From: Natrialba hulunbeirensis JCM 10989
Lineage (GTDB): Archaea > Halobacteriota > Halobacteria > Halobacteriales > Natrialbaceae
Assembly: GCF_000337575.1 (NCBI RefSeq)
Contig: NZ_AOIM01000009.1
Span: forward strand, 117,114-181,113
Direction of reading: 5' to 3'
DNA length: 64,000 bases
Both the position numbers and the translations under genes were made by a program. This document shows positions 38,778-64,000 of the stretch, in pieces. The stretch's first letter is position 1. Each line of letters opens with the position of its first letter. Below the pieces are notes generated by a model. It was not told the origin of the DNA and did not search any database. It saw only the letters and a program-made list of their open reading frames with translations.

Positions 38778-38852
38778 GCTCCGATGGTGTAGTCCGGCCA
38801 ATCATATTGCCCTCTCACGGCAATGACCTGGGTTCGAATCCCAGTCGGAGCA
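38778..38852 (+). tRNA. tRNA-Glu (anticodon CTC)
   Basis: All cloverleaf arms are visible. The acceptor stem GCTCCGA pairs with TCGGAGC (7 bp). The anticodon stem TTGCC/GGCAA encloses loop CTCTCAC with anticodon CTC, and the T arm reads CTGGG TTCGAAT CCCAG. CCA is not encoded. A tyrosine recombinase gene begins 165 nt downstream, so the 3' half of this gene is the likely attachment site of the following island. No second copy of its 3' end was found in the window. Confidence 0.93.
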
Positions 38853-39016
38853 CTCCAATCCCTTTCTCGTCTTGCGGTTTTGGCCTGTGGCTAACCTAAG
38901 GTGAATACGATGCTACAGGGCAAACACGTAATCGAACCCGTGTCACCCCGACGCCGTCTTGCGGTTCATGTTGTTGCCCCGGCAATTACGTTCGACGTAA
39001 GATTCAGGGGGCATTC

Positions 39017-40120
39017 ATGACCGATCTTGACGGTATCTCGGTCGTCACGGAACCATGCGAGGAATTGCTCAATGAACGTCAGCTATCTGACTATCGTTCC
39101 CAGCGTGAAGACTGTCTCAAATGGTTGCTCACATTCGGGAAGAACCCGGACAAAGTCAACGGGTATGCTTTCGAGACGGTGCGGGCCAGAGCATATCGGA
39201 TGGACATGTTCTATCGATGGGTCTGGGAGCAGGAGGGGCGCTATCTCGCAGACGTCTCTCATGAACACGCTGATGGGTGGATGGAAGAACTAGCCTATCA
39301 AGACAAAAGTACCGCTCACAAAGACAACTGCCAGAAGGCCGTTCAGATGCTGCTCAAATGGCGTCATCATAAACACGGTCTCGACAAATGGGAGCCAGAC
39401 ATTCGCTTCAACTCTAACGGCTCCTCGCAGCCCCGTGACTTCTTGACGCGCCAGGAGCGAAGTAAAATCCGAGAGGTGTCTCTCGAGTACGGCTCGATCC
39501 CGTCATATCAGAGCGTCACGCCAGAGGAGCGGGATCGCTGGAAAGCCTACCTCGCCCAGCGATTCGAAAAGCCGAAGTCAGAAGTAACGCCCGACGATTG
39601 GGACCGTGCCAACGGCTGGAAAATCCCATCGCTGGTCTTTGTCAGTCTGGACGCTGGACTCCGCCCGATCGAAGTTGCTCGAGCTACTACGGGATGGATC
39701 GATACTGATAACGAGGTTCTGCGTATTCCGAAAGAAGAGAGTTCGAAGAACAGAGATAACTGGATTGTTAGTATCCACACCCGTACAGCAGAGATGTTAG
39801 AACGTTGGCTCGAACAACGTGAAACGATATCCATGTACGACGATACTGACGCACTCTGGTTGACGAGGCAAAACAATACTTATCGGTCGCGTGCGCTCAA
39901 GCATCTCCTTCTTCGGTTGAGCGAGCAAGCTGGCATCGATACCGACGACCGACGCTTGAGTTGGTACGCAATCAGACATTCCGTAGGAACATATATGACC
40001 CGAGAAGAGGGATTAGCTGCGGCTCAAGCACAACTCCGGCATTCGAGCCCCCAAACGACGATGAAGTATGACCAAGTTCCCGCTGAGGACCGAAGAGATG
40101 CCCTTGATCGGATGGGTTAA
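39017..40120 (+). CDS. Tyrosine recombinase/integrase (copy 1)
   Basis: The 367-residue protein has an N-terminal core-binding domain and a catalytic domain with Arg in LDAGLRPIEV (near 214) and the second Arg in WYAIRHSVGTYM (near 319). His is in QLRHSSPQTT (near 342) and the nucleophile candidate Tyr in MKYDQVP (near 350). It is first in line after tRNA-Glu and so is the probable integrase of this island. It is clearly homologous to the 41452 recombinase, sharing SLVF-SLDA-LRPIEV and LSWY-IRHS-GTYM. The stop overlaps the convergent next gene. Confidence 0.92.
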   Translation: MTDLDGISVVTEPCEELLNERQLSDYRSQREDCLKWLLTFGKNPDKVNGYAFETVRARAYRMDMFYRWVWEQEGRYLADVSHEHADGWMEELAYQDKSTAHKDNCQKAVQMLLKWRHHKHGLDKWEPDIRFNSNGSSQPRDFLTRQERSKIREVSLEYGSIPSYQSVTPEERDRWKAYLAQRFEKPKSEVTPDDWDRANGWKIPSLVFVSLDAGLRPIEVARATTGWIDTDNEVLRIPKEESSKNRDNWIVSIHTRTAEMLERWLEQRETISMYDDTDALWLTRQNNTYRSRALKHLLLRLSEQAGIDTDDRRLSWYAIRHSVGTYMTREEGLAAAQAQLRHSSPQTTMKYDQVPAEDRRDALDRMG

Positions 40121-48039: not shown

Positions 48040-48384
48040 ATGACTAACAATCTCGTTGAACTTGTAGATCATTTTGATCTACTCGGAAATAGACGTCGTT
48101 TACTCGTTATTGGCTATCTTTCTCTAGTTGATCAACAAGCTTCCGTCGAGGTCCGAGATCTTGCCCGTGTCATCCGGAGTATCGAGTTAGAGACACCCCC
48201 TCATCAGATAAAATCTAAAGAGTACGAATCTGCTTATAACGGACTCATTCAAACACATCTTCCAAAACTTGCGGCAAACGGAGTTATCGAATATGATGAC
48301 TCAAGGAAGACGCTTTCTCCTACGTATCGCATATACCAATATTCCCTTCTCGTACACTTTGTTCTATATTTCACACAAGTATAA
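48040..48384 (+). CDS. Small winged-helix protein (DUF7344-like)
   Basis: ATG 48040 is preferred to two GTG codons just upstream. The 114-residue product (LVELVDHFDLLGNRRRLLVI, then LPKLAANGVIEYDDSRKTLS) has the same winged-helix pattern as the 26092 gene, with a hydrophobic C-terminal helix (YSLLVHFVLYF). It may be a regulator for nearby defence genes. It faces the CARF regulator end to end with 23 nt between stops. Confidence 0.65.
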   Translation: MTNNLVELVDHFDLLGNRRRLLVIGYLSLVDQQASVEVRDLARVIRSIELETPPHQIKSKEYESAYNGLIQTHLPKLAANGVIEYDDSRKTLSPTYRIYQYSLLVHFVLYFTQV

Positions 48385-48407: not shown

Positions 48408-49046
48408 CTACCTTGTCTCCAAAAATACCCGGCCACTATCTGTGACAACCACTGTTTTCGTACGGCCTTTTGCCTGTGTTTGGACGAAACTATTTTGCTC
48501 TAAGCTATTTACGTGGCGGGCGATCGTACTCTTTGATTTGGCAAGTTCGTCAGCAATATCGGTGATGGATAGTGGTGTATTCAATTCAATTAAGTCCATC
48601 AGTAGTTCTTTCTCAGCACCTGTTGTGCTTCCTTGGAGATTTAATTTAGGGAGACGACGTACACTACTGTCAATATCTCCTACCTGAAGTATCGTATCGA
48701 TGTAGTTTTCTGTTGAAAAGGTAGCGACCGTTAAAGGAAACAAGAGTTCCCGAGCGCCACCTCCGAGAATAACGACAGTATCGCCCTTTGCTGCTTGGAT
48801 GAGATCTGCACAATACAGAACGCTTTCGACAAAATCAGTATGTGGGAGATGCTCGGTAGTCAAGTCAAAATCTGGAACAACCTGTGTCAAGATTTGTTTA
48901 ACTTCCTCGAAAGCATCTTCTCCCCTACTGGAACCACTTGATGGTTGTAGCAATATGACTTTGTCTTCAGATTCTAGGCCTTCGCCCAGAACTGGTCGAA
49001 CAACCCGTCGACTATCGAACCCCAAGGGTGCCAGATATGTTCGCAT
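48408..49046 (-). CDS. CARF-domain winged-helix regulator (Csa3-like)
   Basis: ATG 49046 yields MRTYLAPLGFDSRRVVRPVL, the expected start of the Rossmann-like CARF fold; ATG 49058 would add four residues. The 212-residue protein has the CARF loop VVILGGGARELLFPL (near 92), which in known members binds cyclic oligonucleotides. A C-terminal winged helix follows (PLSITDIADELAKSKSTIAR, near 162-182). This is the architecture of Csa3, the regulator of CRISPR loci, but no CRISPR array or cas gene is in view. It lies divergent from the six-gene helicase operon and is its likely regulator (inference). Confidence 0.85.
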   Translation of the reverse strand: MRTYLAPLGFDSRRVVRPVLGEGLESEDKVILLQPSSGSSRGEDAFEEVKQILTQVVPDFDLTTEHLPHTDFVESVLYCADLIQAAKGDTVVILGGGARELLFPLTVATFSTENYIDTILQVGDIDSSVRRLPKLNLQGSTTGAEKELLMDLIELNTPLSITDIADELAKSKSTIARHVNSLEQNSFVQTQAKGRTKTVVVTDSGRVFLETR

Positions 49047-49483
49047 GTTGTGATACATGATCTGTGGCCTAGTTACTGTTCCGAAATAGTGCAACAGTAG
49101 GCACGAAATTCGCACAAATTAAGACCAACATCAGAGACATAGGCGATCAGATCAGGGTTAGTCGTCCAACAGTGTTCTACGATACTGCAACGGTGTCTGA
49201 ACTGTTGCATTCCCGATAGCTATTTGGTATCGGCGGGACAATTTGTCAATTGCTCGCATACACCGCTGTCGGTTGGCACCTTCTCCGACACGGTTAGTAA
49301 CAACTATATTGAAATATAATTTACCCGATGGTTTTATGGTGGTCTGGTGAGTAGGATAATCTAATCGCATCCGTCCGTAGAGGCCTAAGACGGCCAATAT
49401 GGGGTAGATACATCTACCATATCTGGTGCGAGTATCGACGTCCATCCCACAATCGACGTCGATATAGATTCCCAAGCAAACCC
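49047..49483. promoter_or_regulatory. Control region between CARF regulator and operon
   Basis: The 437-nt divergent spacer contains GGTAGAT-AC-ATCTACC (49403-49418), a perfect 16-bp inverted repeat with outer ATGG/CCAT similarity. ATCGACGTC occurs twice (49434-49442 and 49452-49460), 18 bp apart; the second is part of the 12-bp palindrome ATCGACGTCGAT (49452-49463). GATATAG at 49462-49468 could be the operon TATA box, giving an almost leaderless mRNA. AT-rich TATA options also lie near 49302-49324. These are good operator candidates for the CARF protein. Confidence 0.5.
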
Positions 49484-50350
49484 ATGCAAGCCCCACCCGA
49501 TTCAAGCGAACCCACGCTTGCGAACTTCATCGGGACACGAGACTCGTTTCTCGTGATCCGAGATCCACAACTCGCAAAAATGGGTTCACAAGCACGTGCA
49601 CAACTACGATCGCTACCGCTCCTCTCGGAGTTCGGTCTCAACCGAGTCGCACATCCAGGTATCTACGATAACGGGTTGCGACTTACAGAGTACCAACTCA
49701 TACCAAACGAGGACCTTCGAGCGGGCGGCGTGACCGAAGCAGAGTTCCCGCTGATTCACTACGTCAGTCAGGAGATGCTCACGGGACAACTACGGGACAA
49801 GGAGAGTGTATACGACGACCAAGATGTCGTTCGACGACTTCTTCGTAAGCGACCCGAGGGTGTCCCATACGTACTCGTTACCGACACGAGTACACCTCGG
49901 ATGCCACGTCATACACAGAAACCGGGGAAATCGTTTATCGACGAGTTTGAGTGTACCGTCACCGAATATAAGGGATTGCTAAAGCGGTACCTGCAGCATA
50001 ACCTTGACTCGGATTTGTCTCTCTCGTCGACGCAAAACCTGTACTTCCACCAGATTTCGTCCCATCACAAACAAAGGGGACTCGAAGCGGGGTCAATTCC
50101 TGATCTCTTCGATTACACGCAGATCCCAGCAGATAGTCCAGCGTGGGATCCGCTTTATTACATCATTCGTGAGGATGTTGATCAGGTGCTCGAGGACTAC
50201 TCTGAACGCATTCGAGAAGCCCTCCGTTCGTGGACTGAACACGGGCCAACCCAAAAAATCGCGAACAGCATGCTCGACATGCTAGAGCGGGAAGATTTCG
50301 AAGAAGAAGGACTTGACGACTACCGATATCGGCATCAGGAAAACATATGA
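49484..50350 (+). CDS. Operon gene A: unknown 288-residue protein
   Basis: No family was recognised. The product is acidic and soluble, with conserved-looking segments FIGTRDSFLVIRDPQLAKMG near residue 16, EFPLIHYVSQEMLTG near 93 and YFHQISSHHKQRGLEAGSIP near 188. No membrane helix or nucleotide-binding loop is visible. It is the first gene of a six-gene operon and overlaps gene B by 4 nt (ATGA), so its product probably works with B to F. A sensor, adaptor or nuclease with an unrecognised fold are all open. Confidence 0.75.
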   Translation: MQAPPDSSEPTLANFIGTRDSFLVIRDPQLAKMGSQARAQLRSLPLLSEFGLNRVAHPGIYDNGLRLTEYQLIPNEDLRAGGVTEAEFPLIHYVSQEMLTGQLRDKESVYDDQDVVRRLLRKRPEGVPYVLVTDTSTPRMPRHTQKPGKSFIDEFECTVTEYKGLLKRYLQHNLDSDLSLSSTQNLYFHQISSHHKQRGLEAGSIPDLFDYTQIPADSPAWDPLYYIIREDVDQVLEDYSERIREALRSWTEHGPTQKIANSMLDMLEREDFEEEGLDDYRYRHQENI

Positions 50351-51270
50351 GTACAACGTATCCCCCGGCAAATACGAAGCCGGACAAGCTACTAACCGGG
50401 TTCATCTCGGTACGAGCACCGGAACTCAAACACCTTTACGGAGCCATTCAGGGCGCAACCAGTGTTGATGAGCTAACCAACAAATTTGGTCGTCCAACCG
50501 AAGATGGTCTTGAGACTGATCACGTTGAGGAGACAGTACGGTTTTTGAACACAGTTGATCTTGTTGAGAGCCCCTCAGGAGACATCAGGAATACGGTCGA
50601 ACGAATCAACGAGCATCAGTTCAAGGGACTCCCTTTCGAACCGCGTCTCTTATATCACTGTAATCAGCAGAAGGGACGACAAACACACTTTGCTGCTATC
50701 TACCCCGCGCTGCTAACCGAGGGGGACAGGACGGTGAGTGCTAAACGAGACGATTTACGGACCATCCTGAAACGCAAGACAGACTATGAATTTGCCTGGA
50801 AGGACGAAAAAATCGACATGTGGTTAACCCTTTGTGAACAACTTGGATTGGTCACGGAGACGGAAGATAGTATCGTCCTAAGTCCCTGTCGTGCCTTGTT
50901 CCACGACGCTCTCATCCTCTCGCCAACAGATACTGATAAAGAACCAAACTATGATGATGTAGAGGTCAAGAACGGGGAGTTCCGGCGAGCGCTCGATTGG
51001 ATCAACGACAACCTCTTTGCGGTGTACGAAGAGCGAGCGGGTACCTCAAGAGTACATCCCGCAATCGCAGACGTACTTCGGAACATGGAGGACGACGGCG
51101 TAATTTCACTATCAAGTCCAGGTGACTCACAGAACGCAGTCGAGATCCCGCCTGAAGATCTTGATGATGATGTTCGCGGCAAACGGCGCGATGCGACCCG
51201 CGTCTCAATTCATTCACGTCCAGACAAAACGGCCTACCAATACCCTCTCACCCAACCCCTTACCCAATAA
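50347..51270 (+). CDS. Operon gene B: winged-helix-like protein, DpdG-like by position
   Basis: The 307-residue product seems to hold repeated winged-helix units: ELKHLYGAIQGATSVDELTN with HVEETVRFLNTVDLVESPSG, then MWLTLCEQLGLVTETEDSIV, then VHPAIADVLRNMEDDGVISL. It has no signal or membrane helix. It precedes a large P-loop ATPase gene, as DpdG precedes DpdH in Dpd clusters; the match is by order and size only. The stop codon shares its last base with the ATG of gene C. It may recognise DNA for the complex. Confidence 0.7.
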   Translation: MSTTYPPANTKPDKLLTGFISVRAPELKHLYGAIQGATSVDELTNKFGRPTEDGLETDHVEETVRFLNTVDLVESPSGDIRNTVERINEHQFKGLPFEPRLLYHCNQQKGRQTHFAAIYPALLTEGDRTVSAKRDDLRTILKRKTDYEFAWKDEKIDMWLTLCEQLGLVTETEDSIVLSPCRALFHDALILSPTDTDKEPNYDDVEVKNGEFRRALDWINDNLFAVYEERAGTSRVHPAIADVLRNMEDDGVISLSSPGDSQNAVEIPPEDLDDDVRGKRRDATRVSIHSRPDKTAYQYPLTQPLTQ

Positions 51271-54200
51271 TGAGCAATAACGTTCAGCGATCCTCGACCA
51301 CCAACGAGATGGACCGTTACTGGGACGACGACGAGGTCGATCACTTCATCACTTCGGAGGCATACACGGAGAAGAAGACTCCTGAGCAATTTGAAGAGAC
51401 TCACGTCGACATCGATCGGATCTACGCCGACACACTCACTCCTCTCGGAATCTCAGGAAACTTCGTTACTCAGGAGGACGTGCTTGAATCAATAACGGCG
51501 TCAACAGTTGGAGGACCAGATAGCGATGATGATCCTGATCCGAATCGGATCTTCATTGTGCGTGGGGAACCTGGCTCTGGAAAGAGCCAGCTCTGTGAAT
51601 GGACGAAGTACCAAATCAACGGCTTTGGTGAGAACGACGATGGTGTTGAGGACTACGTAGCGCTTCACGTGTCTCGAAGCCGAACCCGCATGGAACAGAT
51701 TATTAATGTTCTCACCGAACCACTTGATGTTGACCCTGACGTTAGGAACATTCAGGGAAGCGACCCCTATGAGCTAGCTGAACCTATTGTGGGTCTTCTT
51801 CGCGGCTATTGGTCTAACAGCCTGCTAACTGATGAAGAATTATCTGAACTTACCGAAAAGAGGGACGATGAAACAGATCTACGAAACATATTTGCCGAAA
51901 ACATCCAAGAGTATCAAGATGATTTGCAGTCCCGTGAAGAGAATCCAGATTTTAAGCTTCTCACTAGAAAAGACTACCGGAAGTTGCACTTATCCCTAGA
52001 TATCGGTGATAAGCTACGTGATGATAAAGAATTGATTTTTCCTGCTTTAAAGAATCAAGCACATGAGTACCTCTCAAAAAACCTCGTGGGGGACTTCAAG
52101 GAGCAACTCAAGGAATACTCCCAATTATATCAAGAGAGGGGAATTCGTCCAGTACTTATTTGTGAAGATCTCACTACGTTCAGTGTACTAAAGGAACAAC
52201 TCCTTGACCATATTTTCGAACTCAGTAGTAGTCACTACGATATTGTACTTGGATGGACGATTGGATGGGAAGATGATAATATTGAGGATGCATTAAACCG
52301 GTCAAACGCTGCCACCTATATGGAGGGGCGTTCAGAGGGGTATCTGACGATGAGCGATGAAGATACGCACGAAGCGTATTTCCTTGATGATGATGTTTCG
52401 GTAGAACTCACACGCTCATACCTCAATGCTATTAAACGTCACTCCGATACCAAACGTGAATCAGATGATATTGCCAATGCATTTGATGGCTTGTATCCTT
52501 TCAATGAACGATTTATTCACCTCGCGTATCGACAACTGAATGATAAAGGGAGTGACCGCAAGACGCCGAGGCTACTTCTGCTTCGAGTTGTGAAACATTG
52601 CCTAAAATCGACTTTGCCCCCCTACGAGGCGATGAAGTCGAATCCATTCGTGGATACGCCTACATTTGAGGTGGACATGAAGTATGACCAGATATATCAA
52701 GATGTTAGCCGCTGGTATGGTGCCCCCGTTGAGGACGGTGTTGGTGTCAAGAGAGGTATCTTCGAAGCCTTCGGGATCAAAATCCCCGACAGCGACGAAG
52801 CACTTGTGAAAGGGGAGTATGTCATATTTGATAAAGGAAAGGGAAGTGCTGTTCTCGATAAGATTCAAAACCCGCCTACACCCGAGTACGAGGTCATGGA
52901 GAGTGACGAAGGAGATGATGAGAAGCAAGAAGACAGTGGGATTGCTGGAGAAGGTGAAGAAGAAGAAGTGATTGATGTTATCGACAAGCCTGAACTGTCG
53001 GAAGAAGAGCGTAAGCGGCAGCGTGAGGTCCAAGAGTTCCAAGATTGGATAACCAATGGAGAGGGTTATGACAGTTCTGATACACTTCATCGAGGCGCAG
53101 TTGAAACACTCGAACGGTGGCATGAACCAACACGCCTCGGTAACCCAAACGCATCAACACGTTATGTGAGCAGTATCTACTATGCTGGTGGAGATCATAT
53201 TCCGGTATCCATTCAGGGCGACCAGCAACGCCAAGCGAATGTTGATGTAGAACTCGAGTGGGGGGCGGAACACGAAGATCTCTACACACCTATGCTTGAG
53301 TATGGCCTCTTTGGAATGTTCGATGCAACCGACACTAACTTCGATCAGTTGCGAGCGTGGGCAGACACAAACGTTGCGCAGTTCAAGCGGGAGATGCGCA
53401 AGGAGATCGAAGACAACCTCAAGGGATTAACCATCGAAAAGATGCTGGTGCTGGGGCAACTCTTTCTCATCAATGCCGCGAAGGGGACGAAAATCGAACA
53501 AGATGGGATCTCTACAGAACTCATCTTTGAGGAGTATAATCTGGATCAGCCGTACGGAAAGCCGATAGTTGATGAGTTTGAACGTGATAGCGCGTTCTGG
53601 GAGGCGTTCACGAATCTAGCCAAATCCTCGAGCGATATTAGCGACCTCATCGAGGGATTCTTCCTCCTCAAGTCGAACGTTGTCGACTACGATCGCCTAG
53701 CAGAAGCGCGACGTGAAGTTGCGGCCGACTTTGATGCCCACGTCGATGATGCAATGATGATCGATGCCGGCGAGATCCCAGATGCCTACAAGGTCGGCTC
53801 GACACGAAAACAAGCGAACACAAAGGTTTCGACGCTATTTAGTCGCATTTCGGACTATGCGACCGAACTTCAACGTCTTACTCCTGAAGAAGACGGCTCC
53901 CACATCCAAGAGGATTTAGAGCCGGTCGAGCGATGGTATGACAGCAGTCATACAGTCGACGATCTCGTCGAGTGGTTCGAGACGCTCTACAACTGCGCCG
54001 GGACGATGAACGTCACCACCAAGTCGAGTTACGAAGACGCCTACGAGATACTCACCGAATCGCCCGAGGAAGTAAATCTCATGTCCTTCCGTGAGGATGT
54101 GGAGGGATTCCGGAACATGGACGATGCGACTGGAACGACACTCATCGCACGACTACATGATTTCGCTCGTAGCCGCCACGAGCAGAGTGCTTGGGAGATA

Positions 54201-54350
54201 TACGAGGTGCTTGATTCACTTATCGATGAGCTTCAGGATCAGGACCACTCCACTGGCGTCGATCTCGAACACCGGATTCAACAAATTAACGAGTACACCG
54301 AGTACGAACAGAAGCGGCAGGAAGTCATCGAAGTCACGGAGGATTTGTAG
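51270..54350 (+). CDS. Operon gene C: large P-loop ATPase, DpdH/BrxC-like
   Basis: The 1026-residue protein has Walker A in VRGEPGSGKSQLCEW (near residue 100). The Walker B-like strand RPVLICEDLTTF (near 293-304) has Glu-Asp in place of the usual Asp-Glu. An acidic hinge (residues 545-570) separates this STAND/AAA-like part from a long helical C-terminal half. Size and order fit large ATPases of Dpd (DpdH) or BREX (BrxC/PglY). Base composition in 51.8-52.9 kb is more AT-rich than in genes E and F, which suggests a mixed origin. It starts on the last base of gene B and ends 1 nt before gene D. Confidence 0.8.
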   Translation: MSNNVQRSSTTNEMDRYWDDDEVDHFITSEAYTEKKTPEQFEETHVDIDRIYADTLTPLGISGNFVTQEDVLESITASTVGGPDSDDDPDPNRIFIVRGEPGSGKSQLCEWTKYQINGFGENDDGVEDYVALHVSRSRTRMEQIINVLTEPLDVDPDVRNIQGSDPYELAEPIVGLLRGYWSNSLLTDEELSELTEKRDDETDLRNIFAENIQEYQDDLQSREENPDFKLLTRKDYRKLHLSLDIGDKLRDDKELIFPALKNQAHEYLSKNLVGDFKEQLKEYSQLYQERGIRPVLICEDLTTFSVLKEQLLDHIFELSSSHYDIVLGWTIGWEDDNIEDALNRSNAATYMEGRSEGYLTMSDEDTHEAYFLDDDVSVELTRSYLNAIKRHSDTKRESDDIANAFDGLYPFNERFIHLAYRQLNDKGSDRKTPRLLLLRVVKHCLKSTLPPYEAMKSNPFVDTPTFEVDMKYDQIYQDVSRWYGAPVEDGVGVKRGIFEAFGIKIPDSDEALVKGEYVIFDKGKGSAVLDKIQNPPTPEYEVMESDEGDDEKQEDSGIAGEGEEEEVIDVIDKPELSEEERKRQREVQEFQDWITNGEGYDSSDTLHRGAVETLERWHEPTRLGNPNASTRYVSSIYYAGGDHIPVSIQGDQQRQANVDVELEWGAEHEDLYTPMLEYGLFGMFDATDTNFDQLRAWADTNVAQFKREMRKEIEDNLKGLTIEKMLVLGQLFLINAAKGTKIEQDGISTELIFEEYNLDQPYGKPIVDEFERDSAFWEAFTNLAKSSSDISDLIEGFFLLKSNVVDYDRLAEARREVAADFDAHVDDAMMIDAGEIPDAYKVGSTRKQANTKVSTLFSRISDYATELQRLTPEEDGSHIQEDLEPVERWYDSSHTVDDLVEWFETLYNCAGTMNVTTKSSYEDAYEILTESPEEVNLMSFREDVEGFRNMDDATGTTLIARLHDFARSRHEQSAWEIYEVLDSLIDELQDQDHSTGVDLEHRIQQINEYTEYEQKRQEVIEVTEDL

Positions 54351-54351
54351 A

Positions 54352-55182
54352 ATGTCTACCAGTCAATCATTACCCACAGTCGTAGAAGCCCTCGAGGACA
54401 AGGCCAAGAAGCACAAGCAAGCGGAAAACACCCAGTTCCACGTCTCAGTGGCACGGCACAATATCCGCAAGGTCAACAGCGAACTCAACGATCTCGTGAA
54501 GAGTCTCGAAGATCTTCAGTACTACAAAGAGGTTCACGAGGGCGCGTTCGATGGCTCGGCACCGACGATGACTAGCAGTGCCGCACAGACTGCTGAGAAG
54601 GCTGTCGAGACGACACAAGAGGACCTGCTGGAGAACGCACAGAGTGGTGGTTTCGCCGACGACGAAACCGAACTTGGATCGGACGATGACAGTGGTGATC
54701 CGGAGGTTGAGATCACCCCAGAGGTACAGACGCAGATCTCGCAGATCCGGTCAGCGAAGAAACAAGTTGATGACGTCACTGAGAACATCGAGGGGCAACT
54801 CAAGTCCAAACGAGAGAAGTGGAGTACAAAGGTCAGTGCTGCGGAGGAACTTCAGAAGATCCTCGGGGGACAGAACAAGGACTTTTCGCGCACGCTCAAC
54901 CATATGCATCAACTCCTGACCCGTGAGTTGATGGACTCGAGCGGGTCCGCATCGAACTTCGTCAGTCAGTGGAACAAAGCAGTAAACAATTGGGAAAAAC
55001 ACCAATCGCTCCAAAGCTTCGACGATTTCCAAGAAAAACACGACCTCTCTGACTCGACTGTCGAGGACGTTAAGACACTCAGCCAGTCCCAACAACTCAC
55101 ATTAGCTGATGTCTCGCTCGAAACCGTGGAGGAGATGAAACGTGTTGACGAACTCGAGTCGGCAGTCGAACTGAGCCTCTAA
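54352..55182 (+). CDS. Operon gene D: 276-residue coiled-coil protein
   Basis: ATG 54352 lies one base after the gene C stop; the longer open frame upstream lies inside gene C. The product is nearly all helix, with coiled coils near residues 20-65 (FHVSVARHNIRKVNSELNDL) and 125-165 (TQISQIRSAKKQVDDVTENI) split by an acidic loop (DDETELGSDDDSGD). It is probably a structural adaptor linking ATPase C with helicase E. It occupies the place that DpdI has between DpdH and DpdJ; no sequence match is claimed. Confidence 0.75.
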   Translation: MSTSQSLPTVVEALEDKAKKHKQAENTQFHVSVARHNIRKVNSELNDLVKSLEDLQYYKEVHEGAFDGSAPTMTSSAAQTAEKAVETTQEDLLENAQSGGFADDETELGSDDDSGDPEVEITPEVQTQISQIRSAKKQVDDVTENIEGQLKSKREKWSTKVSAAEELQKILGGQNKDFSRTLNHMHQLLTRELMDSSGSASNFVSQWNKAVNNWEKHQSLQSFDDFQEKHDLSDSTVEDVKTLSQSQQLTLADVSLETVEEMKRVDELESAVELSL

Positions 55183-55184
55183 CG

Positions 55185-58100
55185 ATGAGAGATCCCGTAA
55201 CCCGCGCAGAGCAGATGCAAGAGGCCTACCACGATTATTTCATCGGTCGTGGTGGACGAGCAGCGCGCAGCGTCGCCAACCGACTCGCCGATGGTGAAGA
55301 CGACCTCACGGGCATGCGTGGTCCGTACCTTCAGGCTCTTGACATCCCAAACTGGAGCGGCCGTTCCTGGGAGTCCTTTGCCCGATCGGTGAACCTCGAA
55401 CCACATATCCGTCGTGCCTTCACGAAAATCGGTTTCGAGAGACTCTACGACTTTCAAGAGCGCAGCGTCGAGGCTATCCTCAATGGCGACGACACCGTCA
55501 TAACGGCTGCAACAGGACGTGGGAAGACCGAAGCGTGGCTCATTCCGATCCTCAATCGTATCCTTGAAGACAAGCGGTACGGCGAGGAAAGCGACGACAC
55601 GAGTGTCAAGGCTACGCTCATCTATCCTACGAAGGCGCTCGCACAAGACCAACTGAAGCGCCTCCTCGGGTACATCTATCGTATCAACAATCAACTAACG
55701 TCTAAACAGCAGATCACGGTCGGGATCTACGATGGTGATACCCCACGAAATGTCGGAGAGTCTGGTTCCGAGGGGTACCTCAACGCGACCTTCCGGCACT
55801 TCGAGTGTCCGGGATACAATGACGAACTCGACAAGTGCCAAGACTGTGGTGGAGGAGTCCGTATCCGGAATACCGGTTCTCGGTTCAAACTCATCCCCGA
55901 GAAAGCACACTGTGAGGACGACGATCCGAACGACGTCCCACTCGACTTCCTACGCCTGACGAAAAACGACATCCTCGAGGACGGAGTTGACATCTTGCTC
56001 ACCAATCCCGATACGATAAACTACCGTCTCATCAATACCAACGCCGAAGACGAACATGAACGGTTCGTCTACGAACCCGAGTTCCTCGTCTTTGACGAGG
56101 TCCACACCTACGATGGCCTATTTGGGAGTTACACGTCGACGTTGATGAAGCGGATTCAGTCGCTCCGAGAAAAACGCGATGTCGACGACCTGCAACTCAT
56201 CGCGAGCAGTGCGACCGTCGAGAATGATGTCGAACTGTTTCAGAAAGTCAGTGGTGCCGTAGACGTCAACCAAGTGAGCGAGTCGCCTCGCGATCTCAAT
56301 GGTGACGTTCCGGAGGGGGTTCCAGAAGCGCTGATGTCGGGCAACCTGTCCGTCGACCACATTCTACGTGCGACAGCTGTGCCGGATGATGTGGTCTCGG
56401 GTCTCGTCGCGTTCGACTACACGCTGGAGGATGCGTCAAGTTACGACCGCGACCGCCGAGAGACACTGGTGAGCGACGCTCTCTTTGATCACCTTACCGA
56501 AGTCGAGGAGGATCCCGGTGCACAGGTCGTTCGCTACGTCCATCAGTTGCTGTACGATGAGCCGCTCACGCGGTCCCAGTTGCACGACGAGTTAGAAACG
56601 GAACTGGATCTCGATACCGATGAGGCTTCGACGCTGGTGTCGAACGTTCGGACCTTGGGTGAGTTCTCCGGTATGTTGGAGAACCGGAGCCATGTGTTTT
56701 CGTGGCCAATAGACGGCTTCTACACGTGTCCAGCATGCGATGCGATGTACCGCTCGCCACAGGACGACTGTCGTGAGTGTGGGTTCGACTTCGTCACACG
56801 CTCTACCTACTGTCGGCACTGTAGCGACGAGCACCTCGTTGCATGGTACTGTCCGAGTTGCGACCAACTAGAGCCCTATACGCCGACCGAGCACGGAACG
56901 ATTGATCAGGACGATGAATATGTCTGTTACCGGTGTGAGGAAGCGCGCGACGACGTCGTCCAGATGGTACGTACGACGTTCCAGCCCTTTCTCGAGTGTC
57001 TCGACTGTGGACACCAAACCGAACGAACCGCGATCCGTGACTGCCCCGAGTGCAATTCCAAGACCGTCAGGACGGGCGAAAAGACGTTTACCTGCGTCAA
57101 TCCGGAGTGTGAATCGACTCACGAGGACGAGCGGGTTTGTGACAACTGTGACGGAACAGACTTCAGACTCGCTACCGTTGACGGTCAGTTCGACTGTCCG
57201 GACTGCGGCGAGACATACGAAAATCCCGAGAAGGCCCCTAACCAGTGTGTCGATTGTGATTCATCACTCACTTCAACGAGGTATGTTCCGTGGACCTGTG
57301 GGAACAACGACTGTAGCCGGATTCGCTTCGAGGACACTCTCGATCGATGTGACTGTGGTTCGACCTCGTTCGTAAAGCGCGGACTCTTCGATATCCATCA
57401 GGACCAGCACTGTCGATCGTGTGATACGGCGTTCCTCGGCAATGAGGGGTGCGATTGCGACGAACCGGATCGCCATCCGCGGACCGGCCACCATCAGGCA
57501 TACAAGACAATCGATACCCGTGGTCAGATTCACACGATGAGTTCGCAGCCGTCGGCCGTCCCATGCCCGCATCCCTACGCCCGATACGAAATCGGTCGTC
57601 GGTTCGATGAACTGATGCGGGGCCCGAGTAACCTCGCTGTGACAACTTCACAGTATATGCTGCGCCGTGTCGCCGATGAAGAAGGCCAACAGGCGGCGCA
57701 ACTCCTGTCGTTCGCCGATTCCCACCGCGACATGAAGGAACTCAGTCGGGACTTTTCGGAACCCGAGGTCGAGACCCTCCTCGATCAACTGCTGATCGAG
57801 AGTGTGTCTTCTCGTGGTGACGGGAACAACTGGACACCGTTCAGTCAAGTCCTCGAAGACGCCGCGGACATCGCCGACGAGGTAAACGATGCACTGGAAC
57901 CGCCGCGAGTCGCGAGGAGTGTCGAATTTGATCTGAAGTCACGGTTGAAAGACCAGCCTCGGAAGCGCTGGGACGACGATGATGCCCTTTGGGATCGACT
58001 CATCCGACGTGCACTCGAGCACACCTACAGTCAGCGTTTTGGCGAGCGCGATGGTTCTCTCTCCGAAGAAGGACTGCTTGACATTCGATTTGCTCCGGGT

Positions 58101-60713
58101 CTGGACGAACTCGCAAGTGACGAACGTGCTATTGTCCGCGAACTCGCCGACGAGGGCAACGGCTATCGCGTCAAGAACTTCGACCATCCAAGCCCCGACA
58201 GATCCCCCGAAGCGGTCGTCGAGGAACTGGTTGACCGCAATATCCTCAAATACGGTCACTCCGAGGACTACGTTTCGTTCGATCCATCCGCGCTCGCTGT
58301 CACGGTCGCAGGTGACGAAGACGGTATTCGGTTCGACCCCGAGGCCGAGAAGTACTACACGACGCTCCATCACCAGTTCGGATTAGACGGACAGGCTGTT
58401 GTCCTGTCAGGAACGTCACTCGCTGAACGAGCGTCGATCTCTCACCCACGGTTCTCGCAGCGTGCGCACCGCGCGGAATACTCACAGACGCGAATCCTTA
58501 TTTCTGAGGAGTATCTCGGAGCGACGAACAAGCGTAAACGCCGAGAGTTGGAGTATCTCTTCCGCGAAGAAAACTATCCCCACCACCTCTCTTCAGGACC
58601 AACGATGGAACTGGGTGTGGACATTGGCGACCTCGACGCGCTTCTGCTATACGGAACGCCGCCGAACATGAACGCATACCTCCAGCGAGTCGGACGTGCA
58701 GGACGTAGCTCTCACTCCTCGATAGTCCACTCAGTCAGCCAGCGCAACCCTATCGATTACTACTACTACGACCATCCGGACGAGCTCATCGACACTGATC
58801 CGACTCCCGTCCCGCTCAACGAGCACAACGAGGAGGTTCTACGTGTTTCGCTGTCGTGGGCGATCTTCGACTACGTGGCATCCAACTTCACTATTCCGTG
58901 GGACGTCAGTCGTCACGGCCGTGCACGGTCGATCGATGGTGGGGACACCTATCACCGTCGGAGTATGCTCGACGAGAGCGAACGCGAAGACGCCAGTAAA
59001 CTGACCCACGTAATGTCCCTCAGTGCCGATACGCTGTCACTCGGGGGCGACGACTCGAAACTCGATGTGCTCAGCGAGGTTGTTGATGACCACGCACGAG
59101 ACATCGCCGACTATCTCGGGTCGCTCCTCGACTACCGTTACTGTGAGGAGTGTGAGCGACGATACGCTGCTGACGACAACTGCAAAACGTGTGCAAGAAG
59201 CGACTGTGACGGAGAAATCCGATATGCCAAAGACGAGTTCGGCCACCTCATCAACGACGCTCTCGAGAACTTCGACGAGCGCTACACTATCGGATACCGT
59301 GAGTACAAACGGGCACTCGAAGGCGAGTTATCCGACCTGAAAAGACGTAATTCTCGGTTGCGTCGCGACCAGCAGCGGGCAGAATCTGACGACCGTGCAC
59401 GCATCATGCGTGAACGTCGTGGCCTCAAGGACCGAATCGGGGTTCTCGACGACTACCTCTCTGATTTAGGAGACGAGAGTTACTTCGACTTCCTCAGGGA
59501 GTCCCGCGAGAGCAAGTACGACTTCTCGATGCGGAGCGTCGCCACGACGGCGGGTCTGACTTTGGTCGACGAAGGGTATGACCGGCGGAACGTCGGCGAT
59601 CAGGCGAGTGGACGTGCGATGCAGATGGCGCTCTCGGAACTCCACCCCGGTGCCGCCTATCTCGACGGCGGTGAGACATACACCGTCTCACGCGTCCGAC
59701 TCGACGACAAGGCCAGTTCAGATCTCCGTGACACAGTAAGCGAAGCGGTCGATGAGGGTCACCTGGCCGAGGAAATCGTCTGTCCGGCGTGTAACGCCTC
59801 GCACGAATCCGACACCGACGAGTGTGACTGTGAGAACGATGCGCCGCTCAAGCGACGCCGATTGGCGGTGCTCGATTCGGTTGACGCCTACCACGATAAC
59901 CTCAAACTGACTGCGGAGGGCAACGAGGCTCGCCACCTCCACGACGAAGCGAACAATCCGGTCCAGAACACGTACGCCGAGCGGGAGACATCAATACTCA
60001 AGTTCGACTCTGAACGGACGTTCGAACTTCAGAATGCCAACGGGGATCCTCTCGGGACGATCGAGTACGGCGATTACTCGGTTCTGCTGCACACGAAGAG
60101 CTACAAGACGAAGTACAAGTCAGGAGAGGTCGATCCAAGGCCGACATCCTTCGAGGTATGCGGCGAAGAGAACTGTCCAGGTGTCATCTACCGTGACGAT
60201 GACGACGAGCGTCGGTGCAGTGCCGACCCCGACCACTTTCCTGATGGTCGCGGAGTTGACTCCGAGTTCATTCGCCTCGGATACCAGTACGACACGCAGG
60301 GTATCCGAGTTGACCTCAATGACCGCGACCTGTCACACACGTTGGCTCATGGCCTCCGAGTTGCGCTGCAATACCTTGGCGGCGTCAACATTCGTGACCT
60401 CGCCGAATATGTTGGTGAGGAGCATGTAGACGTTTTCGAGTCCCAGGAGGGGGGATCCGATGTCGCACGACTTCTCTTTGAGCGGGCGGACGGAGAGTTC
60501 CGGGCGTTCCACCGTGCAGTCGGACTTATGCGTGATCAGTTCGACTGTGACTGCGAAAACGGATGTCCGTCTTGTCTCTACCAATACGGCTGTGACGTCA
60601 GAAACGATCAGCGGTCGTTCGATCGGGAACGTCTTCGAGACATCCTCGCCCACGGTAGTGTGATCATTCAGCCGATCACGAATCACGAGACCGACGAACA
60701 GCTCACCAACTGA
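55185..60713 (+). CDS. Operon gene E: giant SF2 helicase with zinc ribbons and MZB (DUF1998) domain
   Basis: The 1842-residue protein has RecA1 with motif I AATGRGKTEAWL (near 111), motif II FDEVHTYDG (near 304) and motif III SSATVEN (near 341). About nine zinc ribbons follow between residues 515 and 770 (e.g. YTCPACDAMY, FDCPDCGETY, HCRSCDTAF). RecA2 starts at LLSFADSHRDMKEL (near 838) and includes MELGVDIGDLDALL and LQRVGRAGR (near 1145-1175). The C-terminal MZB/DUF1998 domain has CDCENGCPSCLYQYGC (near 1787). Such helicases occur in DISARM (DrmA/DrmB), Dpd (DpdJ) and MrfA repair systems. It likely translocates on DNA and unwinds or remodels invader DNA. Confidence 0.88.
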   Translation: MRDPVTRAEQMQEAYHDYFIGRGGRAARSVANRLADGEDDLTGMRGPYLQALDIPNWSGRSWESFARSVNLEPHIRRAFTKIGFERLYDFQERSVEAILNGDDTVITAATGRGKTEAWLIPILNRILEDKRYGEESDDTSVKATLIYPTKALAQDQLKRLLGYIYRINNQLTSKQQITVGIYDGDTPRNVGESGSEGYLNATFRHFECPGYNDELDKCQDCGGGVRIRNTGSRFKLIPEKAHCEDDDPNDVPLDFLRLTKNDILEDGVDILLTNPDTINYRLINTNAEDEHERFVYEPEFLVFDEVHTYDGLFGSYTSTLMKRIQSLREKRDVDDLQLIASSATVENDVELFQKVSGAVDVNQVSESPRDLNGDVPEGVPEALMSGNLSVDHILRATAVPDDVVSGLVAFDYTLEDASSYDRDRRETLVSDALFDHLTEVEEDPGAQVVRYVHQLLYDEPLTRSQLHDELETELDLDTDEASTLVSNVRTLGEFSGMLENRSHVFSWPIDGFYTCPACDAMYRSPQDDCRECGFDFVTRSTYCRHCSDEHLVAWYCPSCDQLEPYTPTEHGTIDQDDEYVCYRCEEARDDVVQMVRTTFQPFLECLDCGHQTERTAIRDCPECNSKTVRTGEKTFTCVNPECESTHEDERVCDNCDGTDFRLATVDGQFDCPDCGETYENPEKAPNQCVDCDSSLTSTRYVPWTCGNNDCSRIRFEDTLDRCDCGSTSFVKRGLFDIHQDQHCRSCDTAFLGNEGCDCDEPDRHPRTGHHQAYKTIDTRGQIHTMSSQPSAVPCPHPYARYEIGRRFDELMRGPSNLAVTTSQYMLRRVADEEGQQAAQLLSFADSHRDMKELSRDFSEPEVETLLDQLLIESVSSRGDGNNWTPFSQVLEDAADIADEVNDALEPPRVARSVEFDLKSRLKDQPRKRWDDDDALWDRLIRRALEHTYSQRFGERDGSLSEEGLLDIRFAPGLDELASDERAIVRELADEGNGYRVKNFDHPSPDRSPEAVVEELVDRNILKYGHSEDYVSFDPSALAVTVAGDEDGIRFDPEAEKYYTTLHHQFGLDGQAVVLSGTSLAERASISHPRFSQRAHRAEYSQTRILISEEYLGATNKRKRRELEYLFREENYPHHLSSGPTMELGVDIGDLDALLLYGTPPNMNAYLQRVGRAGRSSHSSIVHSVSQRNPIDYYYYDHPDELIDTDPTPVPLNEHNEEVLRVSLSWAIFDYVASNFTIPWDVSRHGRARSIDGGDTYHRRSMLDESEREDASKLTHVMSLSADTLSLGGDDSKLDVLSEVVDDHARDIADYLGSLLDYRYCEECERRYAADDNCKTCARSDCDGEIRYAKDEFGHLINDALENFDERYTIGYREYKRALEGELSDLKRRNSRLRRDQQRAESDDRARIMRERRGLKDRIGVLDDYLSDLGDESYFDFLRESRESKYDFSMRSVATTAGLTLVDEGYDRRNVGDQASGRAMQMALSELHPGAAYLDGGETYTVSRVRLDDKASSDLRDTVSEAVDEGHLAEEIVCPACNASHESDTDECDCENDAPLKRRRLAVLDSVDAYHDNLKLTAEGNEARHLHDEANNPVQNTYAERETSILKFDSERTFELQNANGDPLGTIEYGDYSVLLHTKSYKTKYKSGEVDPRPTSFEVCGEENCPGVIYRDDDDERRCSADPDHFPDGRGVDSEFIRLGYQYDTQGIRVDLNDRDLSHTLAHGLRVALQYLGGVNIRDLAEYVGEEHVDVFESQEGGSDVARLLFERADGEFRAFHRAVGLMRDQFDCDCENGCPSCLYQYGCDVRNDQRSFDRERLRDILAHGSVIIQPITNHETDEQLTN

Positions 60714-60739
60714 CCAACATCCCACACCAATTGCCACCG

Positions 60740-63700
60740 ATGGATTTCGACCCAATCGAACTCGCGAACTCGATGCGCGCATCGTACGCCGAACACTACG
60801 CCGGCTCTCAGCCCCAGCGAGCCGTCAAAAGTCTCGTATCACGGTATAACGACGGATTGGGTGAGTCGCTGAAGAGCGACCTCCCCGGGTTCATTCGTAC
60901 GAAGGGGCCCTACCTTCAGGTGCTCGACCTTCCCCAGATGAGCGATACCCCCTGGGAGACATTCGCCGACAATCATGACCTCCATAACGATCTTACCGAG
61001 ACGTTCTCTGAGGCTGGTTTCCGCTCGCTGTACGAGTTTCAGGAGTCAGCAGTTGAATCGGTTCTCGAGGACCACCATACGCTCCTGACCGCGAGTACGG
61101 GTCGGGGGAAGACCGAGGGATGGCTCATTCCTATCCTTCAGTTTATCACCGAAGCGAAGGAGGGCCAGCACGAGGACCACCCGCCAGACAGCGTCAAGTG
61201 CGTCCTCACGTACCCGACCAAGGCGCTCGCGCAGGATCAGCTGAAGCGGTTGATCGACTACCTGTTCACGCTCAATCGAGGACGCCCGTCAGATGAACAG
61301 GTGACCGTCGGAATCTACGACGGCGACACTAAGCGTCGCGACCCCGACGAACTTGCGTACCTCCAGACCACGTTCCAATACTTCGACTGCCCGTGCGACG
61401 AGTGTGACTCCTCACTGACAGTCAGCCAGCGCGACGACGGCTCGTTCGTCGTCGAACCAATGGTGGAACATGAGGACGACCTCGCCTTCGACTTCATCAA
61501 GGTCACTCGTGACGCCATCGTCGAATCACCCGCAGATATCCTGTTGACGAACCCAGACACGATCAACTATCGGCTCTTTAACGTCAACGGAAACGACGAA
61601 CAGCAGCGCTTCGTCGCCGAACCGAAATATTTCGTATTCGACGAGATTCACGAGTATTCTGAGCTCTTTGGTTCGTTCACGTCGACGCTCATGCGTCGGT
61701 ATATCCGAGAGCGCCAAGAACTCAATGGGTACGATAGTGAGTCCGATGACGACCTCACTATCGTCGGTGCGTCGGCGACCGTGGAAAACAAGCGGACGGT
61801 CTTCCAGCGTATCAATCCATTCGTTGACCCCGATGTTGCGGTTATCGAGGAAGACGAGCGCACTCTTAATGCACCGTTCCCAGTCGATATCCCCAACGAC
61901 TTCATCTCGGCGGAGTTGACTGATGAGGAGTTGCGAAGCGGGAATACCGATGCCGCGAAGCGAGCACTCGACGCTGCCGGTGTAGAGGCCGGTAGCAAAG
62001 ATGTCGACAAGAGACTCTACGAACATTTAGTCGAGGACGGGGGAGGGCCCTTGGAGTTCGTCCGCGGTATTTATGCGGCACTTCGCGAGACTCCACTTCG
62101 ACCAGTCGGCCTTCGTGACCGCTTGATCGATGAGACTGGTCTCTCCGAGTCCGAAGCAGAGATAGTAGTAGCGAACTTCATGACTATCGGAGAGGTGTCA
62201 GATATTCTTGAGCGGCGCGCACACCTGTTTAGTTGGCCGCTCGACGGCTACTACACGTGTCTCAATTGCGGGACGGTCTACGACACTCCGCAGTCCTCCT
62301 GTACTGAGTGCGACCATCACTTCGTAACGAAACTCTCGTTGTGTAACGAGTGTGGTGAGGAATCTCTCGAGTCGTGGTTCTGCCCGAACTGTGAGCGCCT
62401 CGTACCTCACACCGTCACGTCTGAAGAGGGACGGTTTGAGTATTTCCAACGAAGGGAATGCCAATGTGAGACTGTTGACGGCGAAACCCCCGAGATGGTT
62501 CGAGTCTACTGGCGACCGTACTACGAGTGTACGGACTGTGGCGAGCGTCAGAAAATCGACCACCAGCACGACTGTTCCGACTGCGATGCCGCAATGGTCC
62601 TCGACGACTCGATGGAAAAACACGTCTGTACTAACCCAGACTGTGACGAGGAACTCACCGTTGAGGAAGCACTGGAACCCGAATGCCATTCCTGCCACTC
62701 TACTGCGTTAGAACCGCTTGCAGACGAGGAGGTTCAGTATTGTATCGAGTGTGGGGATGTCTACGAAGATCCTGAGGGACAAGAGTGTACTACTGACGAT
62801 TGTAACGGCGATCTTACGCCAAAACGGTTCCTCGGATGGACGTGCAGCGATCCCGCGTGCGAGGAAGTCTATTTCGGAAATCCGCCAGCGTCGTGCAGCT
62901 GTGGTAAACGGAAACTCGTTCGCTCGGCGCTGTTCGACATTAGCATGGTCGACGAATGCCAGTCCTGTGGACACGAATTTCTCCCCAACGGCCCACACGA
63001 CTGTAACTGTGACTGCCTCGAGATTAGCCGCCGAGCGAAGGGATACGGCAACTACCGAATGGTCGACGACAACGGTCGAGTTCGAGAAGCCAGCCAGTTC
63101 CCCGGTGGACTACCATGTTACCACGAGGGTCGGCGTGAGACCTATGCAAAGAATCGGCGATACGAATCGATGCTGCGCGGACCGGCCAACGCCGCTGTGA
63201 CGACTGGACGCTATCTGCTGCGTTCGCTCGCAGACCGCGACGATCCCAGTGCCTTCGGGGAATCGAAGATGCTCTCGTTCGCGGACAGCCAGTCCGACAT
63301 GAAGGAACTGGAACGGAACTTCCGCGAACCCGAAGAATCGTTCTTCTTCGATCAGTTGTTCGTCGAGAGCGTCAGATCGGTGAGCGATGGATCGGGATGG
63401 GCAACGCTTTCTGACGTGATAGAGCGTGGAGTAAACGATGCCCACCAGTACGAGGAGGAATTAGCGGGCGAAGGCGGGAACATACCGCGGATGTACGAGC
63501 AACTGACCGGCTACGACCAGTCGGTCGATGAGTACTTGACGGAGGAATTGCTGTCCCGTGCTTTGGAGGGCAAGTACAGCCGACGTTACCGTAGTAATCA
63601 GCTTAGCGACGAGGGATTGATTAACGTTCAATTAGCCACTGATATCGCCGATCTCAGCGAGGGAGAGCACGAGTTGATCGTAGAGGTTCTCGGCCAGAAC

Positions 63701-64000
63701 CACCACTACGAACCGAATCTAGTAGACGAGGTTGAGGACGGACACGACCATCTCAATTCACTCGTGGATCGCGGTATTCTGCGCCGCGTCGAAGAGGATG
63801 GGAGTCGATATGTGATGGTCGACGAAGATGCGCTCGAATGTGCTATCGTCGATAACGTGACGCCGACGAACTACAGTCAGACCCGAGAAACATACGCGAC
63901 CTCGGTCGAAGTCGCTCTCGGAACGGCACCCGATGATGTCGTCAAATTCACGGCGACGATAGAGGACCGTTCGGACTTTTCGCATCCACACTACTCCTTG
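60740..64000 (+). CDS. Operon gene F: second giant SF2 helicase, paralogue of E (3' end outside window)
   Basis: The frame from ATG 60740 stays open to the last base, giving 1087 residues. It aligns with E from the start (KGPYLQVLDLPQMSDTPWET). It has motif I ASTGRGKTEGWL (near 119), motif II FDEIHEYSE (near 301), GASATVEN (near 343), many zinc ribbons between 505 and 757 and the RecA2 beginning MLSFADSQSDMKEL (near 847). The window ends before the RecA2 motifs V and VI and any MZB domain. It starts 26 nt after E, the only real gap in the operon. Two such helicases in a row parallel the DrmA/DrmB pair. Confidence 0.88.
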   Translation, partial: MDFDPIELANSMRASYAEHYAGSQPQRAVKSLVSRYNDGLGESLKSDLPGFIRTKGPYLQVLDLPQMSDTPWETFADNHDLHNDLTETFSEAGFRSLYEFQESAVESVLEDHHTLLTASTGRGKTEGWLIPILQFITEAKEGQHEDHPPDSVKCVLTYPTKALAQDQLKRLIDYLFTLNRGRPSDEQVTVGIYDGDTKRRDPDELAYLQTTFQYFDCPCDECDSSLTVSQRDDGSFVVEPMVEHEDDLAFDFIKVTRDAIVESPADILLTNPDTINYRLFNVNGNDEQQRFVAEPKYFVFDEIHEYSELFGSFTSTLMRRYIRERQELNGYDSESDDDLTIVGASATVENKRTVFQRINPFVDPDVAVIEEDERTLNAPFPVDIPNDFISAELTDEELRSGNTDAAKRALDAAGVEAGSKDVDKRLYEHLVEDGGGPLEFVRGIYAALRETPLRPVGLRDRLIDETGLSESEAEIVVANFMTIGEVSDILERRAHLFSWPLDGYYTCLNCGTVYDTPQSSCTECDHHFVTKLSLCNECGEESLESWFCPNCERLVPHTVTSEEGRFEYFQRRECQCETVDGETPEMVRVYWRPYYECTDCGERQKIDHQHDCSDCDAAMVLDDSMEKHVCTNPDCDEELTVEEALEPECHSCHSTALEPLADEEVQYCIECGDVYEDPEGQECTTDDCNGDLTPKRFLGWTCSDPACEEVYFGNPPASCSCGKRKLVRSALFDISMVDECQSCGHEFLPNGPHDCNCDCLEISRRAKGYGNYRMVDDNGRVREASQFPGGLPCYHEGRRETYAKNRRYESMLRGPANAAVTTGRYLLRSLADRDDPSAFGESKMLSFADSQSDMKELERNFREPEESFFFDQLFVESVRSVSDGSGWATLSDVIERGVNDAHQYEEELAGEGGNIPRMYEQLTGYDQSVDEYLTEELLSRALEGKYSRRYRSNQLSDEGLINVQLATDIADLSEGEHELIVEVLGQNHHYEPNLVDEVEDGHDHLNSLVDRGILRRVEEDGSRYVMVDEDALECAIVDNVTPTNYSQTRETYATSVEVALGTAPDDVVKFTATIEDRSDFSHPHYSL

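Follow-up and report, generated by a model that had tools for sequence, protein, structure and literature searches.

We propose with high confidence that Natrialba hulunbeirensis JCM 10989 carries, on a ~60-kb island in a tRNA-Glu gene, a Dpd-like restriction-modification system of haloarchaea, for which BRIGADE Type II is the best-fitting class, and that salt-loving archaea probably use this system to destroy foreign DNA. If true, deazaguanine-based self/non-self discrimination would be extended to archaea with a complete gene set. The stretch analyzed (hereafter, the window) comprises 64,000 nucleotides, bases 117114–181113 of contig C9; the sequence was also read beyond its edge, and coordinates above 64000 are window equivalents (Table 1).

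Genes A to G form a single operon in which neighbors overlap (A–B by 4 nt, B–C by 1 nt) or are separated by 1 nt (C–D) or 2 nt (D–E), F follows E after 26 nt if it starts at ATG 60740, and G overlaps F. The initial annotation, made from the window, had described a six-gene operon; its gene positions, strands and lengths, the tight coupling of A to F and the divergent CARF gene were all borne out, but the row runs on past the window into the PLD nuclease gene G, giving seven genes. The annotation had also remarked that the methyltransferase, PLD nuclease and deazaguanine genes usual in related systems were not in view. This held for the methyltransferase, as none was found among the scanned island proteins (a scan of the larger ORFs), but PLD and deazaguanine genes lie 2–12 kb past the edge, where further reading recovered both the nuclease and a TGT-like DpdA. 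The dpdA gene is found 1.7 kb beyond G in a second transcription unit that encodes a DpdA–DpdC fusion, a second transglycosylase (TGT2), a winged-helix protein (x299) and a BrxC/D-like ATPase, the last three genes overlapping by 4 nt each. Below, A–G are called the restriction cassette and the second unit the modification cassette. A GmrSD-type (DUF262/HNH) restriction gene (45353–47473) adjoins the system, and GmrSD-like genes recur close to the modification cassette in several other loci (G187, G087, L103, L111 and L113). A DUF7344 winged-helix gene (48031–48384) adjoins the CARF gene; in roughly half of the loci, DUF7344 genes, perhaps encoding a second regulator, adjoin one or other of the two cassettes.

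Table 1 Features of the island and of the candidate restriction-modification system, in window coordinates (values above 64000 lie outside the window).
Feature	Position	Strand	Remarks
tRNA-Glu (CTC)	38778..38853	+	Island attachment site; ARAGORN
21-bp att repeat	38808-38828		In tRNA-Glu
Tyrosine integrase	39017..40120	+	Adjoins tRNA; PF00589, 3e-17
CARF-winged-helix (Csa3-type) regulator	48408..49046	-	ORF readable from 49115; homologues start at ATG 49046
Palindrome ACTGTT-N12-AACAGT	49075..49098		Candidate CARF operator; 29-52 bp upstream of CARF start
Second, imperfect half-site copy (GCAACGGT...ACTGTTGC)	49187..49208		From alignment of relatives
Gene A	49484..50350	+	288 aa; domain not recognized
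Gene B	50347..51270	+	Predicted DpdG homologue
Gene C	51270..54350	+	1026 aa; DpdH homologue, P-loop ATPase
Gene D	54352 (ATG)..55182	+	Coiled-coil protein occupying the DpdI place
Gene E	55185..60713	+	1842 aa; YprA-family helicase, MZB zinc module
Gene F	TTG 60731 or ATG 60740..66190	+	Tandem paralogue of E; runs past window end (64000)
Gene G	66180-68156	+	658 aa; PLD nuclease; outside window
Gene between G and dpdA	68247-69050	-	Function not assigned
DpdA-DpdC fusion	69860-72757	+	965 aa; outside window
TGT2	72902-73936	+	344 aa; outside window
x299 winged-helix protein	73933-74832	+	299 aa; outside window
BrxC/D-like ATPase	74829-75986	+	385 aa; outside window

The island spans ~59.9 kb between two exact copies of the 21-bp repeat, the second of which (C9:215814–215834) lies 59.9 kb downstream of the tRNA copy at a point where the GC content is back to 0.64. 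GC content within the island is 0.46–0.57, compared to ~0.63 outside, and integrases are located at the tRNA end.

To assign the restriction genes, alignments of the haloarchaeal families were compared in all pairs with those of bacterial Dpd families from annotated plasmids using hhalign. Gene C matched DpdH (99.8%, 3.8e-28; NCBIfam, 2.8e-9), and E and F each matched DpdJ at 99.9%. The matches of B to DpdG (68%, pairwise E 4.9e-5, near full length) and of G to DpdK (75%, 2.4e-5) were remote, the former being about two orders better than the best off-diagonal match of B. Off-diagonal pairs reached at most 6%, except for the BrxC/D-like ATPase against DpdH (43%), both of which are P-loop proteins. 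The Walker motifs of C, the helicase motifs of E and F (for E in 16 homologues) and the PLD motif of G (HxK...GSxN) are conserved, and B, C, E and G follow the dpdG-H-J-K order of Enterobacter. Profile mapping therefore identifies B as a putative DpdG, C as a putative DpdH, E and F as members of the DpdJ family and G as a putative DpdK; the profile search of A–F proposed earlier thus found Dpd counterparts for B, C and E/F, and the reading of C as a P-loop ATPase, with Walker A and B motifs intact, stands. Gene D was considered as DpdI, but at an hhalign probability of 1.9% the likeness is one of position alone. For gene A, searches of Pfam, NCBIfam and PADLOC came back empty, as did the hhalign comparison with the Dpd families, and its low-confidence AlphaFold model (mean pLDDT 64) gave no significant match in a fold search.

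The two large zinc SF2 helicases recognized in the window were confirmed as YprA-family proteins whose MZB/DUF1998-type modules score above the curated cut-off. They are 37.5% identical to each other over their length, and the nearest solved structure to E is YprA/MrfA (6znp, 3e-26). Both have a zinc region between two RecA cores and a coiled coil after RecA2, a layout that fits ARMADA-like helicases; in profile searches DruE/ARMADA-lineage and DpdJ models score alike: PADLOC gave E and F 140 and 102 bits for DruE, 118 and 103 bits for DpdJ and ~80 bits for DrmA.

The modification cassette encodes two transglycosylases with conserved catalytic residues. The 965-aa protein (P0008) scored 273.6 bits against the NCBIfam DpdA model (cut-off 200), and its sole PDB match was Salmonella DpdA (7ui4, 2.7e-40). 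Its C-terminal domain matches DUF6884/DpdC (95.5% against bacterial DpdC by hhalign), a domain homology by which a DpdC preQ0-to-ADG hydrolase is predicted to be present; the fusion is found in about ten of the 25 DpdA carriers, and in most of the rest the two genes lie side by side. A catalytic Asp pair and a Cys3His zinc site are invariant in 14 DpdA sequences (D89, D337, C548, C550, C553 and H575) and 12 TGT2 sequences (D85, D236, C270, C272, C275 and H293). TGT2 is similar to the catalytic portion of archaeosine TGT (structure 1iq8; 135 bits to TgtA, cut-off 350) but stops short of the C-terminal part of the TgtA model, and a canonical TgtA (635 bits) is encoded separately in the genome. 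Haloarchaeal and bacterial TGT2 families matched at 99.2% by hhalign, as expected within the TGT superfamily; a search in phages returned weak Sulfolobus virus matches and nothing stronger. TGT2 could be a tRNA enzyme instead. The ATPase resembles BrxC/BrxD (5e-15), and its Walker motifs are conserved across 41 homologues. The predicted model of x299 consists of tandem winged helices (pLDDT >90 over most of residues 11–150), for which hhalign found no matching Dpd family and structure searches returned generic winged-helix matches only. QueC-FolE-QueE-QueD or a queuosine-precursor (preQ0) transporter is encoded beside the modification cassette in many loci; neither is within the N. hulunbeirensis locus, where QueC is encoded elsewhere in the genome.

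No DpdB was found in the N. hulunbeirensis locus, and a weak DGQHR match (40–60 bits) was seen in three of 91 haloarchaeal stretches; haloarchaea thus have TGT2 without a proper DpdB. In bacteria, DpdB occurred without TGT2 in seven loci and TGT2 without DpdB in three. This mutual exclusion, although based on few cases, suggests that TGT2 may, together with x299 and the ATPase, substitute for DpdB.

Drawing on canonical Dpd biochemistry (PMC12839542, PMC6884629 and annotated records), we suggest the following division of labor. DpdA would swap selected guanines of the cell's DNA for preQ0 supplied by the host QueC pathway, and the fused DpdC domain would turn the preQ0 base into amido-deazaguanine. 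TGT2, the tandem-winged-helix protein and the BrxC/D-like ATPase would make up another unit, whose probable role, as a stand-in for the missing DpdB, is to target or drive the exchange. ATPase C and the two YprA-family helicases would track unmodified DNA, which the PLD nuclease G would cut, and the CARF regulator would probably bind the palindrome by its own promoter and tune the operon. A more ambitious joint reading is that the system uses two catalytically complete DNA-guanine transglycosylases, that TGT2, the winged-helix protein and the ATPase are a non-homologous DpdB replacement selecting the sites, that one mark is common to swappable restriction cassettes (PLD, PD-(D/E)XK and others), and that a CARF sensor controls the whole; we offer this combination tentatively and think it somewhat doubtful as a package. 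If it were true, cells would change the weapon while the self-mark stays the same.

The distribution of the two cassettes supports their functional coupling. Among 199 related genomes, DpdA was present in 25 and gene A in 18, with both in 17, where they lie within ~25 kb of each other (Fisher p ~1e-17 for co-occurrence, counting genomes as independent and ignoring phylogeny). The A-to-G order is kept wherever the stretch is complete, so the gene set is not a chance assembly, and the synteny across haloarchaeal genomes for which the initial annotation had called was found. The sole gene A carrier without DpdA (G145) keeps CARF, A, B, C, one third of D, x299 and the ATPase, with 51 residues of TGT2 left; a search of that genome did not find dpdA, E, F or G, and the locus is a decayed relic. 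The modification cassette occurs without this restriction cassette in eight genomes. Genomes thus avoid having restriction without modification but tolerate the converse, which fits protection by modification. Two copies per replicon were observed in Halospeciosus flavus and Natronococcus CG52 (L109, L119, L082), with broken dpdA, TGT2, x299 or ATPase frames in one or both copies.

The cassettes are exchangeable and recombine. Between Natronorubrum aibiense (G088) and G111, DpdA is 95% identical but the PLD protein 48%, whereas N. hulunbeirensis (G000) and G111 share the PLD protein at 83% and DpdA at 61%; across loci the restriction cassette lies on either side of the modification cassette and in either orientation. 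Some genomes pair the same modification cassette with a different restriction cassette, which contains a DpdJ-type helicase (4.9e-55) and a PD-(D/E)XK nuclease. Exchange under a constant mark would show restriction specificity evolving without autoimmunity. This alternative cassette (L038:4586–18026, L132:2537–15976) encodes an AAA protein of 1136 aa, the DpdJ-type helicase (929 aa), an MZB-like protein (710 aa) and the PD-(D/E)XK nuclease (1057 aa), and is perhaps related to BRIGADE Type I. A Mre11/Rad50/NurA/HerA-like four-gene set adjoins the modification cassette in Natrinema hispanicum (L068:7260–14924), possibly another swappable partner.

The divergent CARF gene encodes a winged-helix protein without an effector domain (PADLOC CARF3, 6.8e-86; NCBIfam TIGR01884, 80 bits, cut-off 60.2), and it adjoins gene A in 11 loci. 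The palindrome between the two genes occurs in 10 of the 17 carrier genomes, as a single copy in nine of these ten and with a second copy elsewhere in the other, and lies ~385–409 bp upstream of A in checked cases; it is also present in L103, whose A and CARF proteins are only 40–44% identical. Given its conservation, its location and its single-copy occurrence, it is a likely operator, and the CARF protein probably binds it and tunes the operon beside its own promoter. In Halosimplex aquaticum (L050:13170–16316) and in G165, loci lacking the CARF gene, a gene for a 1048-aa UvrD/GajB-like helicase separates DUF7344 from gene A.

Csa3-type CARF proteins bind cyclic tetra-adenylate, and the initial annotation had raised the possibility that a cyclic nucleotide drives the operon. 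Taken further, this would make A–G a CARF-gated effector operon answering a cyclic-oligonucleotide alarm of the CRISPR type III or CBASS-like kind, conferring abortive immunity and not self/non-self discrimination. The adjacency of the CARF gene fits such an alarm, but no source of the signal was found: no Cas10 palm domain was found in the genome, which leaves a cyclic-oligoadenylate signal unsupported and led us to reject that version. The CARF gene is moreover missing from four loci with the restriction cassette (L087, L088, L107 and L124), and a winged helix without an effector domain, paired with a conserved palindrome, fits a transcription regulator of the operon better, so we judge the alarm very unlikely.

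Two further readings would detach the restriction genes from the deazaguanine genes. Genes A–G might be a modification-dependent (Type IV) module that cuts 7-deazaguanine viral DNA, with the dpdA cassette as unrelated cargo or an anti-restriction trait. Targets and precedents for such a module exist, as Druskaviridae haloviruses encode a deazaguanine pathway (PMC8651126) and GmrSD-like GrwAB attacks deazaguanine phage DNA (PMC12137116), and GmrSD-type enzymes recur beside the modification cassette. A cutter of modified DNA should, however, avoid modifying cells, whereas this cassette adjoins the modification genes and is almost never without them, the one exception being decayed; this asymmetry contradicts the Type IV reading, which we consider very unlikely. 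Alternatively, the operon might be a relative of DISARM or Druantia that works without deazaguanine genes, its neighbor being coincidental. The DruE scores of E and F, at least about as high as those for DpdJ, and their DrmA scores are in keeping with this, and an MZB/DUF1998-type SF2 helicase and a PLD nuclease are also features of DISARM. Against it, B, C and G match DpdG, DpdH and DpdK, and gene A co-occurs with DpdA in 17 of 18 cases. In addition, E and F each hold the helicase and the DUF1998-type part in one chain, compared to the separate DrmA and DrmB of DISARM, and deazaguanine genes stand in place of a methyltransferase, of which there is none among the scanned island proteins. DISARM itself is thereby ruled out, and the wider relationship is very unlikely; of the DISARM/Dpd-related defense first suggested, the Dpd kinship and the conservation across haloarchaea remain.

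The Dpd-like restriction-modification system favored here may bear on an open puzzle concerning halovirus HVTV-1, namely how it obtains deazaguanine DNA without a DpdA of its own and what protein accounts for the traces of dADG found in it (PMC6884629). Grown on Haloarcula vallismortis, this virus has ~30% of its G as dPreQ1, with traces of dADG; the authors point to the host DpdA on contig AOLQ01000002 and ascribe dADG to another protein (PMC6884629). This contig corresponds to our locus L123, where a fused DpdA–DpdC, 78% identical to that of N. hulunbeirensis, is accompanied by TGT2, x299, the ATPase, the restriction cassette and que genes. We infer that the fused DpdC domain is a candidate source of the HVTV-1 dADG, and the HVTV-1 data indirectly back the activity of the haloarchaeal DpdA system.

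The locus had been put forward as a candidate new class, but BRIGADE, a predicted class exclusive to halophilic archaea, was named in a September 2025 preprint (Bell et al., PMC12458937), so it is not new in this sense. As outlined there, BRIGADE combines deazaguanine genes, a PLD or PD-(D/E)XK nuclease and two YprA-family helicases, both ARMADA-like in Type II (PMC12458937). Our locus fits this predicted type in having two YprA-family helicases in one operon and a 7-deazaguanine cluster with a PLD nuclease (PD-(D/E)XK in sister loci), and in being confined to halophiles, all 33 named loci in a pattern-limited scan belonging to Halobacteria. It departs from the preprint text in that the helicases described there are nearly identical, compared to 37.5% here. 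The main text of PMC12458937 includes no second transglycosylase, CARF gene, palindrome or cassette exchange for Type II; relative to that text, the paired transglycosylases, cassette exchange, relic, palindrome and HVTV-1 link appear new.

Bacterial Dpd (dpdA–K) shares homologues of DpdA, DpdC, DpdG, DpdH, the DpdJ family and DpdK, and the four from DpdG to DpdK also keep their order. The haloarchaeal system differs in its fused DpdA/DpdC and in having TGT2, x299, the BrxC/D-like ATPase, gene A, a second helicase and CARF in addition; profile searches and hhalign found no match to DpdD, DpdE or DpdF among A–G or the modification genes beyond common helicase cores. BREX-Related Capture defense loci likewise combine a TGT with BREX-type ATPases (PMC12839542) but contain PglZ, DUF4007 and HerA/FtsK, which are unmatched in our cluster, and lack DpdC. 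Dpd-like clusters of cyanobacteria and Paenibacillus (L127, L133, L129) resemble the haloarchaeal one in a DpdA–DUF6884 fusion, a second short TGT and the lack of DpdB, and differ in their restriction genes. Their DUF6884 (DpdC-like) domain is N-terminal, as in cyanobacterial DpdA (L127:9933–12077), the reverse of the C-terminal haloarchaeal order; the same domain at the opposite end of Nostoc-type DpdA points to an independent fusion and therefore to the two activities being tied together.
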